Shown piece after piece: positions 2,560 to 10,100 of a stretch of DNA of 22,746 bases. The stretch covers positions 1-22,746 of IMG/VR virus record IMGVR_UViG_3300042691_029549, one strand, 5' to 3'. Source of the DNA: a virus. The position numbers and the translations under genes were made by a program. The first letter of the stretch is position 1. Every line of letters begins with the position of its first letter. The notes beneath the pieces are model-generated. The model saw nothing but the letters and a program-made list of their open reading frames with translations, was not told where the DNA came from and did not search any database.

Positions 2560-2828
2560 AATGCACCAAGAAAGAACTCGTTGAGCAGATAAAAAAACAG
2601 GAGTCAACAAATCAGTTGTTGCAGCAGCATATCGGACTATTAGAAGCGGAAAACAAGCGACTTTCGGATGAGGTGTCCGCTTTGCCTGAAAACCGGTTCA
2701 ACCTTGAGACCATAGTTCCTGAGGAATGGAGAAAGCCGGTGTTGCAAATTGTTCGCGCATTGCGAGCCCGAAGCAAGGCAAATAAGGATTTGCTTGAAGC
2801 CATTAAGGGCTGCGTGGAGGAACAATGA
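2556..2828 (+). CDS. small coiled-coil protein of unknown function
   Basis: A 90-aa soluble protein. Residues about 8-45 are heptad-like and charged (QIKKQESTNQLLQQ, LLEAENKRLSDEV), predicting a coiled coil; the C-terminal half is a basic helix (RALRARSKANKDLLEAIK). The ATG at 2556 overlaps the terminase stop (ATGA) and has AAAGG 8 nt upstream; a GTG at 2550 would add two residues. Its stop overlaps the next gene by 4 nt, so it is translationally coupled between terminase and the glycosyltransferase. It could be a packaging accessory or a cofactor of the adjacent enzymes. I recognise no family. Confidence 0.75.
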   Translation: MKCTKKELVEQIKKQESTNQLLQQHIGLLEAENKRLSDEVSALPENRFNLETIVPEEWRKPVLQIVRALRARSKANKDLLEAIKGCVEEQ

Positions 2829-4360
2829 AATACGGTTTAGCCTACGTGACGAAGCGGGCGCATTGCATCCCGCAGGTGGTGAAGATGTGGAACGACCGGG
2901 CGGCGGACAAGTCGCGGGTCAAGTGGTGCATCGGGGCGGACAGGGGCGATGCTGATGTTCGCGCCGAGGCGCATAAACTTTCGATATTAGTGTCAAGCGA
3001 CGGCGGCGAACAGAATTACGTCAAAGCAGCAAACGCGGCTTGCGGCATCCTGTCGGGGTGGGGAGTGGATTACCTCATCGTCGTCAGTGACGACTTCATC
3101 CCGCCGAACCATTGGGACGCCGCACTCGACGCCGTGATTGCGGAGAACGGCGGCACCACCAGTGCCGTGATTCACGTCAGCGACGGCGGCAGCAACGACC
3201 TCTGCACTATCCCCATCGTCGGCATCAACCGCTACTGGCGGTTCGGGTACATGTACCACCCGTCCTATGAGTCCATGTTCTGTGACACGGAACTGACGGC
3301 GCGGGCGGTGTTGGACTGTTCGTTGGTGGATGCGCGGCATTTGCTGTTTGAGCACATGCACCCGGTCAGCAATAAGCGGCCAACGGATGACGTGGACAAT
3401 GTACACGCCAGCAGCGAACGCTACAAAAAAGGAGAACAGATATTTTTGCAGAGGGTGTCTATTGGCTTCCCGCCAGACAAAGACCCGACTGACGTGCCTC
3501 CGGTGCTTGGAAATCGCTACTGCGCTAGTTTACAGGTGACACGCGACGATGTTTGCTTGCTGGGCGTTGTTGAAACGCTATTTCGGTATGGCGTCAGGAA
3601 CTTTCAATTTAATGTTCCTACGCACCATTGGGACGGTTCGACCGTGCCAGAGTCGGACCATCAACAAGTCAAGGACATTGCCGCCAAGTTGGTCGATATG
3701 GGGGCGCAGTATGTCAGGGTCAATATTGACAGTCGTGTGCACATTACAACGATTGACAAAAAGAAAATGTGGATACGATTCGGACACGAGGGTATGGCGC
3801 GAGGTGATGTTGAGACTGCTTACCGAAACAACTGTTTGTCTCGCCTGCGCTCGCTTGGGTTCAACCACCTACTTATTGTGGATGGCGACGAATTATTTAA
3901 GCCGGGCGCTTTGGCGGCAGTAGATTGGAACGTGCGGTGGTTTCATCCCCACACGGCGGCGTTAAGGGGCGTGCCTCTGGCTGGCCTGCCGGCGGTTGCT
4001 GTGGAAGGCGCGGAAGATAGGATTCTCGTGTACATGGGACCGGATGATTGGTGGAAAGACGTGCGAAGTCCTTATCAGCGAACGCGGGATATTGAGATAT
4101 TCGGCGTCCTGCACTTCTCCGCCGTCCGCAAGACCCGCGACGAGATCGCCGCGAAAATGCGGAAAAGCGGCCACTACGACGATGCGGAGTATCATTTCGA
4201 GGACTGGATTACCCGCAAACTGCCGGCGCTCAAGCCCGGTGCGGTCAATGTCCATATGTACCGCGACGGCTCGTTGTGGCCGTTGGCGCGTGAACTCAAA
4301 CCCGAGGAATGGGCGGCGATACCCGAGAGCGTCAAGCCGCTGTTGTGGGGGGCCAAGTAA
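2825..4360 (+). CDS. two-domain glycosyltransferase (GT-A/GT2-like)
   Basis: A 511-aa protein that looks like two GT-A-type glycosyltransferase domains in tandem. Domain 1 (about 1-200) has a hydrophobic strand ending in an acidic motif, VDYLIVVSDDF, with S88-D89-D90 as the DxD-like site. Domain 2 (about 228-511) has HLLIVDGDELF with D353-G354-D355, then LHFSAVRKTRDEIAAKM (429-445), typical of the C-terminal part of GT2 enzymes. The likely reaction is transfer of a sugar from a nucleotide-sugar; the acceptor (virion protein, tail or host glycan) cannot be told. The start overlaps the previous stop by 4 nt. DNA from about 3425 to 3960 is more AT-rich than the flanks and begins with a ribosome-site-like run AAAAAAGGAGAAC, so the gene may be a fusion. 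Confidence 0.8.
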   Translation: MKYGLAYVTKRAHCIPQVVKMWNDRAADKSRVKWCIGADRGDADVRAEAHKLSILVSSDGGEQNYVKAANAACGILSGWGVDYLIVVSDDFIPPNHWDAALDAVIAENGGTTSAVIHVSDGGSNDLCTIPIVGINRYWRFGYMYHPSYESMFCDTELTARAVLDCSLVDARHLLFEHMHPVSNKRPTDDVDNVHASSERYKKGEQIFLQRVSIGFPPDKDPTDVPPVLGNRYCASLQVTRDDVCLLGVVETLFRYGVRNFQFNVPTHHWDGSTVPESDHQQVKDIAAKLVDMGAQYVRVNIDSRVHITTIDKKKMWIRFGHEGMARGDVETAYRNNCLSRLRSLGFNHLLIVDGDELFKPGALAAVDWNVRWFHPHTAALRGVPLAGLPAVAVEGAEDRILVYMGPDDWWKDVRSPYQRTRDIEIFGVLHFSAVRKTRDEIAAKMRKSGHYDDAEYHFEDWITRKLPALKPGAVNVHMYRDGSLWPLARELKPEEWAAIPESVKPLLWGAK

Positions 4361-4935
4361 TGTATTCACAGAACGACGAAGAGAAGATCATCCTCGATTA
4401 CTTCGGGGACACGTTTGGCCGGTTCTACGACATCGGCGCGTGGGACGGCAAGACGTTCAGCAACACCCGCGCCTTGCTCGAAAAGGGCTGGACGGGAATC
4501 ATGGTGGAGCCGTCGCCGGCAGCATTTGTCGGGCTGCTGAAAAACTGCTCGGAGTTCGGGGACAAAGTGAAACTGGTCAACGCGGCGATCACCCCGAAGC
4601 CGTCCCTGATGGAGTTCTACGACGCGGACGGGGACGCGGTTGGCTCGCTCAATCCCGACCACGCGGTCAAGTGGGGCCACGGTCAGGTCAAGTTCACCGT
4701 TCACACCCTGGCCGCGCAGACACTGTTTGCCTCGTTCGGCCCGGCGGAGTTCATCAACCTCGACGTGGAAAGCATCAACGCCATCCTGTTCCAACATCTA
4801 CCGTGGACGTGGTCGGAATTGAAGCTGGTCTGCGTCGAACACGACGGCCACGACAAACAGATGGAAGAACTGGTCAAGCCCGCCGGGTTCAAGCGGATTC
4901 ACCGTACCGGCGAAAACCTGATTTTAGCCCGATGA
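4360..4935 (+). CDS. FkbM-family methyltransferase
   Basis: A 191-aa SAM-dependent methyltransferase of the FkbM type, typically O-methylating sugars or polyketide-like hydroxyls. Motif I is FYDIGAWDGKTFSN (DIGAWDG at 24-30), the acidic residue closing strand 2 is E50 (GIMVEPSP), and the diagnostic NLDVESINAILF block lies at 133-144, followed by LKLVCVEHDG. The ATG at 4360 shares one base with the preceding TAA; upstream in-frame extension would only read the previous gene out of frame. The position between a glycosyltransferase and a pyruvyl transferase suggests that it methylates a glycan built by the same cassette. Confidence 0.9.
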   Translation: MYSQNDEEKIILDYFGDTFGRFYDIGAWDGKTFSNTRALLEKGWTGIMVEPSPAAFVGLLKNCSEFGDKVKLVNAAITPKPSLMEFYDADGDAVGSLNPDHAVKWGHGQVKFTVHTLAAQTLFASFGPAEFINLDVESINAILFQHLPWTWSELKLVCVEHDGHDKQMEELVKPAGFKRIHRTGENLILAR

Positions 4936-6351: not shown

Positions 6352-6582
6352 CTAGTAGAAAATCTGATAGTCGCCGCTGTAGTATGTCTCGCTGCCGTTG
6401 GGCCAACGGAACCGCACCCAGCCGGGGCCGTTCTCCACAATCGTGACGTTCGGTGTCTGCACCCAAAGACGGGAGCCATTCTGGGTGTCGTGGTAGTTGA
6501 TGGACGCGGCTTTGCGGTTCGCGTCACCGGCACCCAGACACACCACACCCGCCAACACCACCGCGAGGATTGTCCATTTCAT
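6352..6582 (-). CDS. small secreted protein of unknown function
   Basis: A 76-aa protein on the minus strand. Residues 1-20 are a Sec signal peptide (MKWTILAVVLAGVVCLGAG) with likely cleavage around LGA-GDA; the Cys at 15 lacks a clean lipobox. The mature part is about 56 residues, aromatic and Asn-rich (WVQTPNVTIVENGPGWVRFRW, abbreviated), suggesting a small beta domain in the periplasm or outside the cell. The ATG at 6582 has GGAGG 6 nt upstream; longer in-frame extensions run back through the terminator and array and are rejected. It has its own candidate promoter and no match I recognise. It may be a lysogeny-expressed accessory gene acting on the host surface. Confidence 0.75.
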   Translation of the reverse strand: MKWTILAVVLAGVVCLGAGDANRKAASINYHDTQNGSRLWVQTPNVTIVENGPGWVRFRWPNGSETYYSGDYQIFY

Positions 6583-6599
6583 ATCATACCTCCACCGGC

Positions 6600-6627
6600 A
6601 CCGTACCCCTGTCCCGGCCAGTGTCAA
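6600..6627 (-). promoter_or_regulatory. candidate promoter of the small secreted gene
   Basis: On the minus strand TTGACA (6627-6622), a perfect -35 match, is followed after 16 nt by TACGGT (6605-6600), a 3/6 match to -10. It begins right after the U-run of the upstream terminator, exactly where a new transcript would be needed. The predicted leader is only about 11 nt, which makes the exact start uncertain. Confidence 0.4.
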
Positions 6628-6663
6628 GCAAAAGGCGGCAGGCTCGTGCTGACACCTGCCGCC
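6628..6663 (-). terminator. intrinsic terminator after the pentamer array
   Basis: On the minus strand GGCGGCAGG (6663-6655), a 12-nt loop and CCTGCCGCC (6642-6634) form a perfect 9-bp GC-rich stem followed by TTTTGC. It lies immediately after the last array unit, closing the transcription unit that starts at about 7816. Confidence 0.8.
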
Positions 6664-6666
6664 CCA

Positions 6667-7106
6667 CTTTGCCAGTAGTCGCCTCGCGCGACGGTGCGAC
6701 GCCGATGCTGCGCCGAACCTTGCCGTTGCTGGACTGAGCCGAACTTTGCTCCACCATGCCTTTGCCACTCTTGGCGTGACCTTACGCCTCGTCTCAACGC
6801 CCTTCCGTAGCGTTACCGAGCTCGACCGTGCGGTGCCTTTGCTCTGCCAAACGTCGCGCCGCGTAGCCTTTGCCTGACAATTCCACGCCTTGCCTTTGCC
6901 GTTCCGTTCCGTGCTCTACCCGGCCTTGCCTTTGCTTCACGCTTCTGCTCTCCGCAGCGCCTTTGCTCATCAGGGCAAATCGTCGCCTTGCCTTTGCTGT
7001 GCGGCGCGTCGCGTCGCGGCACTTGACCCTGCCTTTGCCATGCCTTTGCCGCGCTGCTCCAGGCTTCGCCCTTGCTTTGCTTCTCTGTGCCTTACTCTGC
7101 CTTCGC
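6667..7106 (-). repeat. pentamer-phased G array (85 units of 5-6 nt)
   Basis: Read on the minus strand from 7106 to 6667, the 440 nt divide without remainder into 85 units: 70 of 5 nt and 15 of 6 nt. By my hand parse 84 units begin with G (51 with GC, 16 GT, 12 GA, 5 GG); the exception is TACTG at 6677-6673. Ten of the 6-nt units are GCAAAG, and GCAAAG (with two in-phase extra copies) recurs mostly at 31-nt or other 5n+1 spacings. Mean unit length is 5.18 nt, so two units span 10.35 nt, near one helical turn. Period 5 excludes normal coding. It starts 2 nt after the stop of the RAMP-like gene and ends at an intrinsic terminator, so it should be the 3' part of that mRNA or a processed RNA from it. 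Confidence 0.85.
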
Positions 7107-7108
7107 TG

Positions 7109-7705
7109 TTACTTCACTTCTTCCCAACTGAACCGGCCCTTGCCGCTGTTCCGCCACTGGCCCAAGCCCTTGTTCGCGCCGTAGTCCAGACACTGCTTGA
7201 CCAACTCCTCCAGCGCCGGCGACAGGCACTTGATTTCCGCCTCGATGGTCGCGCCAGACTTCACCGTCTCGCTGCTGGCAAGGCTGACCCGCTCGCCCTT
7301 CATGGTGTCGGCACGGAGCGGACGGGTGCAAATCTCGCCCATCTCGCCGTTGATCGCCAGCTTGCGCGGGCTGACAAACACGAAGTTATCCACCATGCGC
7401 TTGAACGTCCACTTGGTGAGCTTGGTCTTGCCGACCTTGATTTCGTCGCCGCTCAGGTCAATCAGGATGCCCACGGCTTCCTTGATGAACCCCTTGAGTT
7501 GGTAGTCCCACACGAATGGCTTGCCATTCTCCTTCGGGAACACCGTCAACGACTTTTCGACCAACTCCTCCGCGCCCAGCGCGTGGATTTCCTCATCCAT
7601 CTTCTCCGCGTCCTTGCTCTTGGACGCGATGAACTCGCGGTGGATTTCGGGGTTGTTGCTGGCCGTACCGAGCATGTCTTCCGTCAGTGTAATGCGAACC
7701 TTCAT
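7109..7705 (-). CDS. RAMP-superfamily-like protein upstream of the array
   Basis: A 198-aa protein on the minus strand, opposite to its neighbours. The ATG at 7705 is preceded by GGAGGAACC; a longer in-frame reading would translate the structured leader and is rejected. It opens with a beta strand (MKVRITLTEDMLGTAS), has a central block FVWDYQLKGFIKEAVGIL (about 64-81) like the SLKGxxR region of RAMP proteins, then RPLRADTMKGERVSLASSE, then SGATIEAEIKCLS, and finishes with a Gly-rich loop GLGQWRNSGKGRFSW. Strand, LKG block, E-V-x-x-G-x-x-hydrophobic strand and Gly-rich C-terminus are the layout of Cas7/Cas6-type RAMPs, which bind RNA. No other CRISPR gene is near. Family placement is inference from pattern; conserved phage protein of unknown function is the fallback. 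Confidence 0.7.
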   Translation of the reverse strand: MKVRITLTEDMLGTASNNPEIHREFIASKSKDAEKMDEEIHALGAEELVEKSLTVFPKENGKPFVWDYQLKGFIKEAVGILIDLSGDEIKVGKTKLTKWTFKRMVDNFVFVSPRKLAINGEMGEICTRPLRADTMKGERVSLASSETVKSGATIEAEIKCLSPALEELVKQCLDYGANKGLGQWRNSGKGRFSWEEVK

Positions 7706-7719
7706 GGTTCCTCCATAAG

Positions 7720-7816
7720 AAAACCCGCCCCAGCCTGTGAACGTAGTTCCACTAGCGTGGAAGTGTTGCCGGATAACCGGCGGCCAAGGCGGGCTGATAT
7801 TGGTGCTACGTTCACA
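7720..7816 (-). promoter_or_regulatory. structured 5' leader RNA of the RAMP-like gene
   Basis: From the predicted transcript start near 7816 the minus-strand leader folds as a junction. P1 is an 11-bp perfect stem (TGTGAACGTAG at 7816-7806 with CTACGTTCACA at 7746-7736). P2 is GCCGG-TTAT-CCGGC (7781-7768). P3 is TTCCAC-GCTA-GTGGAA (7762-7747) and abuts P1. CCCGCC (7793-7788) can alternatively pair with GGCGGG (7729-7724), which is followed by TTTT, a terminator-like alternative just before the ribosome site. This looks like a cis-regulatory RNA; no known riboswitch class is recognised. The same palindrome could also be a DNA operator. Confidence 0.5.
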
Positions 7817-7822
7817 ATCCAC

Positions 7823-8157: not shown

Positions 8158-8511
8158 ATGCACGCAACTTTGACGGCAAAGACAATCAAGCACCCCGATG
8201 AAAACGGTGACGTAGCCTACTTGGAGGTCGTTGGCGGAGTTGAGGGCGGTAAACTCTCACTCATCAAGAGCATTGGCGACCGCCAATACAAAAACCTCTC
8301 CGCCATCTGCGACCGCGAACTGGCACGGGTGGGGCTGGCGAATCAGGAGCAATATCAAGTCTGGATGAAAAAATACGGAAAATGGGAAGCGCAATCTGAA
8401 CACGGCCCGCTGACGCTTGAGCAAGCGAAGCGGGTGCTCGGAAGCATAAAACAGTTTTTTGATCCGAGTGAGAATCCATCCAAGATTTTGCCCTACAGCG
8501 AAAAACCGTAA
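8158..8511 (+). CDS. hypothetical protein before the portal
   Basis: A 117-aa soluble protein, no signal or membrane segment. The N-terminal half looks beta-rich (LTAKTIKHPDENGDVAYLEV then VEGGKLSLIKSIGDRQY, abbreviated) and the C-terminal half helical (LTLEQAKRVLGSIKQFF). The ATG follows GAGGAAACA, and its TAA shares a base with the portal ATG. The gene is moderately AT-rich compared with the portal. Constant linkage to the portal would suggest a neck or packaging role, but I recognise no family. Confidence 0.75.
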   Translation: MHATLTAKTIKHPDENGDVAYLEVVGGVEGGKLSLIKSIGDRQYKNLSAICDRELARVGLANQEQYQVWMKKYGKWEAQSEHGPLTLEQAKRVLGSIKQFFDPSENPSKILPYSEKP

Positions 8512-10100
8512 TGCACGAGTCCCCCGCCAATGCCGGCAGCGTTGACCTTGCGAAGATTTTGACCCCTTCGCGCATGGAGAGCACCATTGATAACCTACTC
8601 GCTCCATTTGCGCCGGGTCTAGTGGCACGCAGGCTTGAAGCACGGGCGAAAGCCGGTGCCACCCGTGCCATGCTTTCCTATGCGGCAGCCTACCCATCCC
8701 TGCAACGCGAATCGGCATGGGGGCCGCTGGTCACGGAGGAAGCCGAGTTGCCGGGATTCACCCGGTTCCAACTCATCCTAGAAGGCCGCGACCTGTACCG
8801 CAACATGCCCATCATTCGGGCGGGCGTGAACGGCGTTGCCCGTCGCGCCGTGGGCACCGGTATTCGTTTGCAGTTGTCCACCGATGACGACGGCTGGAAC
8901 CACGAAGCCCTGAGCCAGTGGAACGACTGGTGCGAGGAAGTTGACCTGTCCGGCAACTACGATCTCGCCGGTCTCTGCCGGCAGGCCATCCGCTCCGCGT
9001 ACACGGACGGCGACCTCGGCATCGGGCTGGTGGACGTGGACGGCGACTTGAAGGTGCAACTGATTGAAGGCGACCGGATAGCCGAAGAAATGCGGGCCGG
9101 CATCAACATTGACCGGAACAACCCGATTGGTGGCGTGCAGGTGGATTGGGAAACAGGCCGTCCGGTCGCCTACTTTGTCGGACGCCGCAACGCCGGCGGA
9201 GTGCTGGAAAAGTGCAAGCCGTGGGACGCCGAGAGCTTCCTGCTGTTCTACCGGCGGCAGCGCGTTGACCAGGTGCGCGGTGTGCCGTTGCTGGGGCCGG
9301 TCATCCAGACCGCCCGCGACCTCGACAAGTACCTGACTGCGACCCGTATCGCCGCCAACGTGCAAGCGACCTTCGGCGTATTCATCAAACGCCACAACGC
9401 CGCGCAGTTGAGCTTGGCGCAATCGCAAGCCGTCAACGGCACCAACGATTACCGCACGCAGCCGATGAAGACGGGGCAGATTTGGCATTTGCAGCCCGAT
9501 GAAGATGTGGTCGGCTTCTCCCCCACCATGCCGGCCAGTCAGTTTGACGATGTGGCGAAGTTCTGGGTGCGCCTGATTGCGTGCGGCATGGGCACCACCT
9601 ACGAAGCGGTCATGTCCGACTTCGGGGACATGAGTTTCTCCGCCAGCCGGGTGCAGTTGATGGAACACGACTCGATCAACCGCGAGTGGCAGCGGCTCTT
9701 GGTGCAACGGGTGTTGCAACGGATTTACCGGGTCTGGGTGAGCAAGCGCATGACTCCCGTCAAGGCGGGCGGGTGCGGGCTGCTCCCGTTCAACCCGCAG
9801 GCGTTTGACAAGTACAAGTGGATTGGCCCGGCCAGCGAGTCCGTTGACCCGGTGGGCGATGCGTCGGCGCAGTTGGAACTGATGAACGCCAAAGTCCTGA
9901 GCAAACAGCGGTACTACACGCAGCTTGGGCTTGACTGGCAAAGCGAAATGGCGCAAGTGAAACGGGAAGAAGAATACGCCGCCGAGATCGGCATGGCGGG
10001 CGTGAACCCCAGCAGCGAGCCGGTTGTTGACGACAAGCCCCAAGTGGAGCAAGATAAGGAACCAGAAAAGGAGCAGGAACATGAAGCTATCAAAGATTGA
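8511..10100 (+). CDS. portal protein, lambda GpB family
   Basis: A 529-aa portal protein, the dodecameric ring through which DNA enters and leaves the head. Family hallmarks: DLAGLCRQAIRSAYTDGDLG in the N-terminal half, a wing region with QVRGVPLLGPVIQTARDLDK, a run of small residues after it (TRIAANVQATFGVFIK), and the block YEAVMSDFGDMSFSASRVQL near residue 365, equivalent to the lambda-type D-x-S-S-x-R segment. The C-terminus is highly charged (EQDKEPEKEQEHE), as is common for portal tails. The length is normal for the family. The start forms a TAATG junction with the previous gene. No lambda-type S49 protease (gpC) follows; a different protease is encoded at 10831. Confidence 0.93.
   Translation: MHESPANAGSVDLAKILTPSRMESTIDNLLAPFAPGLVARRLEARAKAGATRAMLSYAAAYPSLQRESAWGPLVTEEAELPGFTRFQLILEGRDLYRNMPIIRAGVNGVARRAVGTGIRLQLSTDDDGWNHEALSQWNDWCEEVDLSGNYDLAGLCRQAIRSAYTDGDLGIGLVDVDGDLKVQLIEGDRIAEEMRAGINIDRNNPIGGVQVDWETGRPVAYFVGRRNAGGVLEKCKPWDAESFLLFYRRQRVDQVRGVPLLGPVIQTARDLDKYLTATRIAANVQATFGVFIKRHNAAQLSLAQSQAVNGTNDYRTQPMKTGQIWHLQPDEDVVGFSPTMPASQFDDVAKFWVRLIACGMGTTYEAVMSDFGDMSFSASRVQLMEHDSINREWQRLLVQRVLQRIYRVWVSKRMTPVKAGGCGLLPFNPQAFDKYKWIGPASESVDPVGDASAQLELMNAKVLSKQRYYTQLGLDWQSEMAQVKREEEYAAEIGMAGVNPSSEPVVDDKPQVEQDKEPEKEQEHEAIKD

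Follow-up and report, generated by a model that had tools for sequence, protein, structure and literature searches.

A phage-borne Cas7-like RAMP gene paired with a G-phased array, probably a relative of VIPR

The RAMP gene, its leader and its array

The window analysed here, i.e. the 22,746 nt at positions 1 to 22,746 of the IMG/VR record IMGVR_UViG_3300042691_029549, belongs to a virus with terminase, portal and capsid genes, and it harbours a gene for a RAMP protein as an antisense insertion between the terminase (643-2559) and portal (8511-10100) genes. The gene is preceded by a structured leader and followed by a phased array that ends in a terminator-like hairpin (Table 1).

Table 1. Features of the RAMP locus (positions in the window)
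Feature	Position	Strand	Basis
RAMP (Cas7-like, Vipr-like) gene	7109..7705	-	Open frame of 198 aa, AlphaFold2 fold, profile matches
Phased array, GHNNN pentamers and GCAAAG-type hexamers	6667..7107	-	HMM, decoded units, Fourier analysis; end position is the end of the HMM segment
Terminator-like hairpin ending the array	6626..6663	-	Read by eye: GGCGGCAGG..CCTGCCGCC, then TTTTGCTT
Structured leader 5' of the RAMP gene, two competing hairpins	7706..7822	-	Folding

The reading frame of the RAMP gene remains open up to a C-terminal end of GLGQWRNSGKGRFSWEEVK. The initial annotation had proposed a RAMP from the layout of this protein, and the predicted fold confirms that reading, with sequence matches likewise placing the protein among RAMPs. 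The AlphaFold2 model (pLDDT 86.2, pTM 0.80) gave type VII Cas7 as its top Foldseek match in the PDB (E 1e-7), with Csm3 also matched, and VIA-align returned Z scores of 13.0 to 8yhd_O (type VII Cas7) and around 12 to Csm3. Among the matches listed, Foldseek reported only CRISPR RAMPs or RAMP-containing proteins and VIA-align exclusively CRISPR RAMP-containing chains (50 of 50 rows), i.e. the comparison with Cas folds brought up no non-RAMP fold. At the sequence level, a profile of 63 homologues matched type VII Cas7 (E 3e-4) and Csm4 (E 0.01) in the PDB through the glycine-rich loop GLGQWRNSGKGRF, which is conserved in the 63 homologues and lies at the C-terminal end of an RRM-like core. The top named match in PADLOC was Cas7_IIId, reached by 26 of these 63 family members with a best E value of 1.2e-5, and a viral relative with 47 % identity carries the label 'Cas system-associated RAMP superfamily protein'. 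No family covering the protein was present in Pfam, NCBIfam or PHROGs, and the plasmid collection held no match to it.

The leader shows a fold z-score of -3.9 and an MFE of -54.3 kcal/mol, with one hairpin followed by TTTTCTT and a terminator-like site at 7743-7726, and its sequence is partly common with that of another locus of the family, L010. Structured RAMP leaders with competing hairpins were also seen at L014:3850-3990 (z -4.8) and L010:3630-3770 (z -2.8), and a leader hairpin ending in a T run is found in both the window and L014. In appearance, these RAMP leaders resemble a transcription attenuator.

On the other side of the gene, the array of around 440 nt shares the strand of the gene. 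The proposed start of the array 2 nt after the stop codon is confirmed by the junction, which reads ..AAG TAA CA/GCGAAG GCAGA GTAAG GCACA GAGAA GCAAA GCAAGG .. (the slash marking the start of the array). Over 560 nt, the G signal reaches a Fourier power of 36 at a period of 5.16, with a power of around 1 expected. Thus, the periodic G step first noticed in this region holds up in both Fourier and HMM analyses, but the 6-nt step of Cas7, to which it had been likened, does not, as the period is 5.16 nt and hexamers occur at intervals of around 31 nt. The pentamer/hexamer HMM gives the array 220 bits, an in-sample score considering that the window array was one of the 32 lineage arrays used for training (loci beyond these 32 and the VIPR loci are out-of-sample). 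With the same HMM, 655 kb of an order-1 Markov control yielded zero segments above 5 bits.

The hairpin at the end of the array has a 9 bp stem (6663-6626), and a similar hairpin ends the arrays of L011 and L014. It was not listed by the consensus scanner because its 12-nt loop exceeds the limit of the scanner. No Rfam families or tRNAs were found in the window, and a tandem-repeat search reported no CRISPR repeat in it, in agreement with the earlier remark that the gene stands without a CRISPR locus. Directly past the terminator, a protein of around 78 aa with a signal-peptide-like start and no Pfam family is encoded at 6352-6588 (-). Between the terminase and portal genes, positions 2825-4935 harbour a glycosyltransferase-like protein of 511 aa without a Pfam match as well as an FkbM-type methyltransferase just below the cut-off.

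In many phages, the RAMP gene is located near genes for a repressor, SSB, RecT, YqaJ-like and NinB-like proteins (names assigned by eye). No next-downstream gene family was common to more than 3 of 125 loci, and cas partners were absent among the recurring neighbours. The top 'neighbour' cluster was rejected as a partner gene, since it represents the antisense frame of the RAMP gene itself. The lineage, which includes a cultured isolate, occurs in phages infecting Clostridia and related gut bacteria, and also in MAGs with the labels Verrucomicrobiota, Sedimentisphaerales, Gemmatimonadales and others. The genome of a cultured isolate, Porcincola intestinalis (G043; L225 and L321-L331), harbours three RAMP-plus-array loci on three contigs, and two RAMP matches of this species are fragmented inside one open frame, as if holding insertions.

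Co-occurrence of RAMP genes and arrays, and the array grammar

Searches with the RAMP profile identified 260 relatives in viral contigs, 80 of which were kept, and a genome set comprised 64 RAMP loci in bacterial and archaeal contigs. Among 86 viral and phage loci, 85 had period-5 arrays, as did 60 of the 64 genome loci, nearly always beside the gene, i.e. the pairing of RAMP and array is near-universal across the homologues. Of 146 loci, which include near-duplicates, 139 have an array no more than 300 nt from the RAMP gene, either downstream (84), upstream (35) or on both sides (20), and the remaining 7 have none at this distance. The initial annotation had placed the RAMP upstream of the array, which is correct for the window, but among homologues the array can also precede the gene. 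The main array was on the strand of the RAMP gene in every case, and minus-strand HMM matches were weak and nearly all overlapped plus-strand arrays, as expected because GC is self-complementary.

The array-less loci L213, L219 and L224 are truncated by the end of their contigs. In L036, around 20 nt of array are followed by an abrupt switch into a lysin-like gene, and this locus is probably a chimera, and L207 has only a weak short phased tract upstream of its RAMP gene. The latter, from a MAG labelled Lokiarchaeota, also carries around five CRISPR-like repeats (GTGACGCCCACGTGCGCATGGGAGGATGG) with short unique spacers 3' of the RAMP gene (L207:6970-7220).

The pairing also holds when starting from the array. 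The gene-blind DNA pattern GCAAAGGCNNN(GNNNN)x4GCAAAGGC matched 41 of 2.9 million viral contigs, 40 of which encode this RAMP; in the remaining contig, the array is cut off by the end of the sequence. In a control of 80 RecT-related phage loci (1.09 Mb) that were not selected for RAMP genes, strong arrays were confined to the two loci that carry the RAMP, and one weak tract of 27 bits was found without a RAMP. Since the co-occurrence is confirmed in both directions, the link between RAMP and array that was initially proposed is no longer inference alone. An origin by chance or as low-complexity sequence is refuted by this two-way co-occurrence and its probability is practically nil: it could draw on the base bias of the tract and nothing further, but the window array scores 220 bits where the control had no segment above 5 bits, and such arrays recur in about 145 phage and genome loci.

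Decoding of 210 arrays yielded 15,706 units. In the training set, 81 % of the units are pentamers, of which 93 % begin with G, and 17 % are hexamers, most frequently GCAAAG, GCAACG and GCAATG. Units start with G, have C, A or T as the second base and mostly A or G, preferentially A, as the third; the base preceding the unit G is itself G in about 24 % of pentamers. With the hexamer and the following unit left aside, positions 4 and 5 show an entropy of 1.91-1.98 bits, and they share little mutual information with other positions. Hexamers recur every 6.2 units with a standard deviation of 2.25, compared with 5.7 if they were randomly placed, and their spacing shows a serial correlation of +0.09, without long-range correction. 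Therefore, the superunit of around 31 nt obeys a local rule.

Comparison of homologous arrays shows that the phased Gs are conserved and that the bases between them change faster. Columns predicted to be G from their neighbours alone are G in 91 % and mismatch in 3.9 %, compared with mismatches of 9.8, 16.7, 15.2 and 16.7 % at offsets 1-4 from the predicted G, and the phase is kept in 4090 of 4269 aligned columns.

RNA secondary structure was rejected as the basis of the arrays, as folding of 46 arrays showed no excess over shuffled sequences (mean z -0.26). Rfam families, including hammerheads, were absent from 16 loci examined, and no common 3' tail was found past the arrays, the downstream sequences being dissimilar and often entering the start region of the next gene. 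The arrays are most naturally understood as a lattice of single-stranded RNA that would be read by a repeated protein subunit. Helix-phased Gs could alternatively serve a DNA-binding protein or DNA bending, considering that 5.16 nt is near half a helical turn. However, the periodicity is strand-asymmetric (mean power 13.2 for G vs 4.3 for C) and tied to the strand of the gene, the hexamer spacing is local, and the partner is a RAMP, i.e. an RNA-binding fold. Helical phasing of the DNA was rejected on the strand asymmetry and the local spacing, and we regard a DNA-level element as extremely improbable.

A further alternative is that the RAMP binds the array within its own mRNA for autoregulation, or builds an RNA-templated filament with a structural role. 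The array lies in cis on the strand of the gene, before or after the coding region, and phased recognition elements of a regulator are known, TRAP being an example. On the other hand, arrays extend to 1.0-1.5 kb, some loci have several of them and one genome has three such loci, which is excessive for feedback. Considering also that the guides of VIPR, the phage system discussed below, are expressed as small RNAs of around 100 nt (PMC13142463), autoregulation or a scaffold appears quite improbable. Two of the loci, L082 and L084, carry an array of 1.4-1.5 kb upstream and another of about 1 kb downstream of a single RAMP gene, and T is prominent after G in these arrays, replacing C.

Relationship to CRISPR RAMPs and VIPR

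The window RAMP resembles Cas7 of types VII and III-D and Csm3 in its predicted fold with a C-terminal glycine-rich loop, but differs from them in being solitary, with neither a cas operon nor a CRISPR array, in the step of 5.16 rather than 6 nt, and in the RNA, which would come from a G-phased array beside the gene. Other phage-associated RNA systems show only partial similarities. TIGR-Tas (PMC12045711) likewise combines an array with one protein and is RNA-guided, but it involves another protein class and another type of array, with no RAMP. The Racr RNA anti-CRISPRs (PMC10651486) are also phage-encoded non-coding RNAs tied to the CRISPR world; they are, however, solitary mimics of CRISPR repeats, whereas the window array is unlike CRISPR repeats and has its own RAMP.

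The closest parallel is the Viral Interference Programmable Repeat (VIPR), described in a preprint of April-June 2026 (PMC13142463), and apart from this preprint our literature search found no solitary phage Cas7 with an array. According to its main text, the RAMP of VIPR, named Vipr, is ancestral and encoded by phages, and its guide RNAs consist of 9-16 YNNGG units in tandem, the hypervariable NN pairs of which specify a gapped DNA target with a 1-nt skip; VIPR represses competing phages and is proposed as the ancestor of CRISPR (PMC13142463). There, a guide RNA for an oligomerising RAMP was demonstrated experimentally, VIPR is divided into seven types, with 'GGY/NN or a related consensus' as the unit and with arrays of several architectures, a structured 3' tail of the guide (vrRNA) is said to be conserved, with details for the SUSP1 clade alone, and an accessory gene, vap, is typical but not universal (PMC13142463).

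The same grammar detects arrays at VIPR loci. Trained without VIPR, the lineage HMM found three of four SUSP1 vrRNA tracts (locus KT454805.2, 28474-29061; ALH47069.1) at 21-25 bits, with no other segment above threshold in the 50 kb of SUSP1 scanned, and of six further loci of the SUSP1 type, it identified arrays at five (LittleE, Trine, phiHSIC, L314 and L315), but not at Medea1. The phiHSIC arrays consist of GCNNN units, two of them ending in GCAAAG, much like those of the window. ORF21 of phiHSIC, annotated antisense across phased arrays (L320:2114-2395), is probably not a gene. As for the proteins, the SUSP1 family profile matched PDB 36pp, 'SUSP1 Vipr protein' (E 3e-83), and hhalign of the window family against SUSP1-type Vipr gave only weak values (E 0.004-0.009); two members hit phrog_4652, to which SUSP1 Vipr belongs, with a best E of 0.023. 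Compared with the SUSP1-type family, for which PADLOC gave no hit, the window family lies closer to Cas7. The Vipr in GU169904.1 (Staphylococcus phage SA1) is 98.5 % identical to that of enterobacterial phages, and the host label of this record may be wrong or the record contaminated.

The shared features are a small phage RAMP of around 195 aa for which neither a CRISPR array nor other cas genes were seen, and an array of 5-nt units, G-anchored and with hypervariable bases, beside the gene (up- or downstream) and on its strand; in LittleE and phiHSIC, the RAMP gene is moreover antisense among structural genes, as in the window. The window RAMP and its adjoining array, with G about every five bases, would therefore be a relative of VIPR. 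There are also differences. The lineage follows GHN/NN, with only G1 strict, compared with GGY/NN in the published main text of the preprint, and has a hexamer about every 31 nt. Its arrays are continuous over 0.1-1.5 kb, in contrast to the RNAs of around 100 nt with 9-16 units and a structured tail reported there (PMC13142463), it has neither a conserved vap gene nor a common 3' tail, and the similarity of its proteins to SUSP1 Vipr is barely detectable. Since a strict GGY is not kept, just the 'related consensus' part of the VIPR definition applies.

Regardless, the window lineage is probably a VIPR lineage that most likely works like VIPR, and the window array is most likely a guide (vrRNA-like) RNA. 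An unguided function is conceivable, i.e. the RAMP-coated array could act as a decoy or anti-CRISPR that poisons or titrates a class 1 CRISPR system of the host or another RNA-binding defence. Compared with SUSP1 Vipr, the family is more similar in sequence to Cas7/Csm RAMPs, in many phages its gene has early repressor, SSB and RecT genes nearby, a region in which counter-defence genes are frequent, and RNA-based anti-CRISPRs exist (PMC10651486). However, the grammar agrees with the guide RNAs tested experimentally for VIPR (PMC13142463), the arrays are unlike CRISPR repeats, and a decoy would not require near-maximum entropy between the Gs, even though neutral drift would give the same. We therefore consider a decoy improbable.

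Proposed mechanism and significance

Our preferred reading, which we hold with good confidence, is that of a VIPR-type RNA-guided ribonucleoprotein, carried by phages and minimal in its make-up. By analogy with the VIPR preprint, from which the oligomerisation on RNA, the gapped pairing, the silencing of DNA and the rival-phage targets are taken, the RAMP gene and the array would be transcribed on one and the same strand, and RAMP subunits would oligomerise on the array RNA, one per unit of around 5 nt. Each subunit may hold the conserved G plus the next one or two bases, leaving the hypervariable bases at positions 4-5 free. Jointly, these free bases would define the gapped DNA target that the complex would bind and silence, and this target would probably belong to a rival phage or prophage. 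The hexamers, spaced about six units apart, may indicate where the register shifts, where the filament completes a turn or where one guide borders on the next.

Targets were searched under numerous combinations of base position and skip length, using unit-shuffled arrays as the control. There was no clear excess in 1.76 Mb of the loci of the lineage itself, and none of the code models gave one when 19,414 units were compared with 3 Mb of phage DNA, RecT-related phages included, the small differences of two models in the latter search being non-independent counts. In 400 kb of the Porcincola genome with three loci, no targets clearly above unit-shuffled arrays were found. An early apparent excess in the target search was rejected, being due to unmasked arrays. 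Two exact guide patterns with a 1-nt skip had zero matches in 2.9 million viral contigs, but so did the SUSP1 guide used as a positive control. Therefore, this test is insensitive and the negative results carry little weight.

In our judgement, the lineage is likely to be already within the VIPR set of the preprint. It is unlikely, but deserves consideration, that it represents a VIPR lineage outside the seven published types, with a single gene lacking an accessory protein, one long continuous array and a two-level code of 5-nt steps plus hexamers about every 31 nt. Being nearer to Cas7 in sequence than SUSP1 Vipr, such a lineage would be a possible bridge between VIPR and class 1 CRISPR. In that case, the hexamer would set the register or separate guides of around six units.

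Either way, the findings extend the recently described RNA-guided VIPR system by a large phage lineage, the grammar of which, derived from around 15,700 decoded units, differs from the published VIPR grammar. This raises the questions of what role the 31-nt superunit plays and whether a RAMP can function from a kilobase array without an accessory protein. The similarity of the lineage to Cas7 of types III-D and VII, absent in the SUSP1-type family, bears on the origin of CRISPR effectors.
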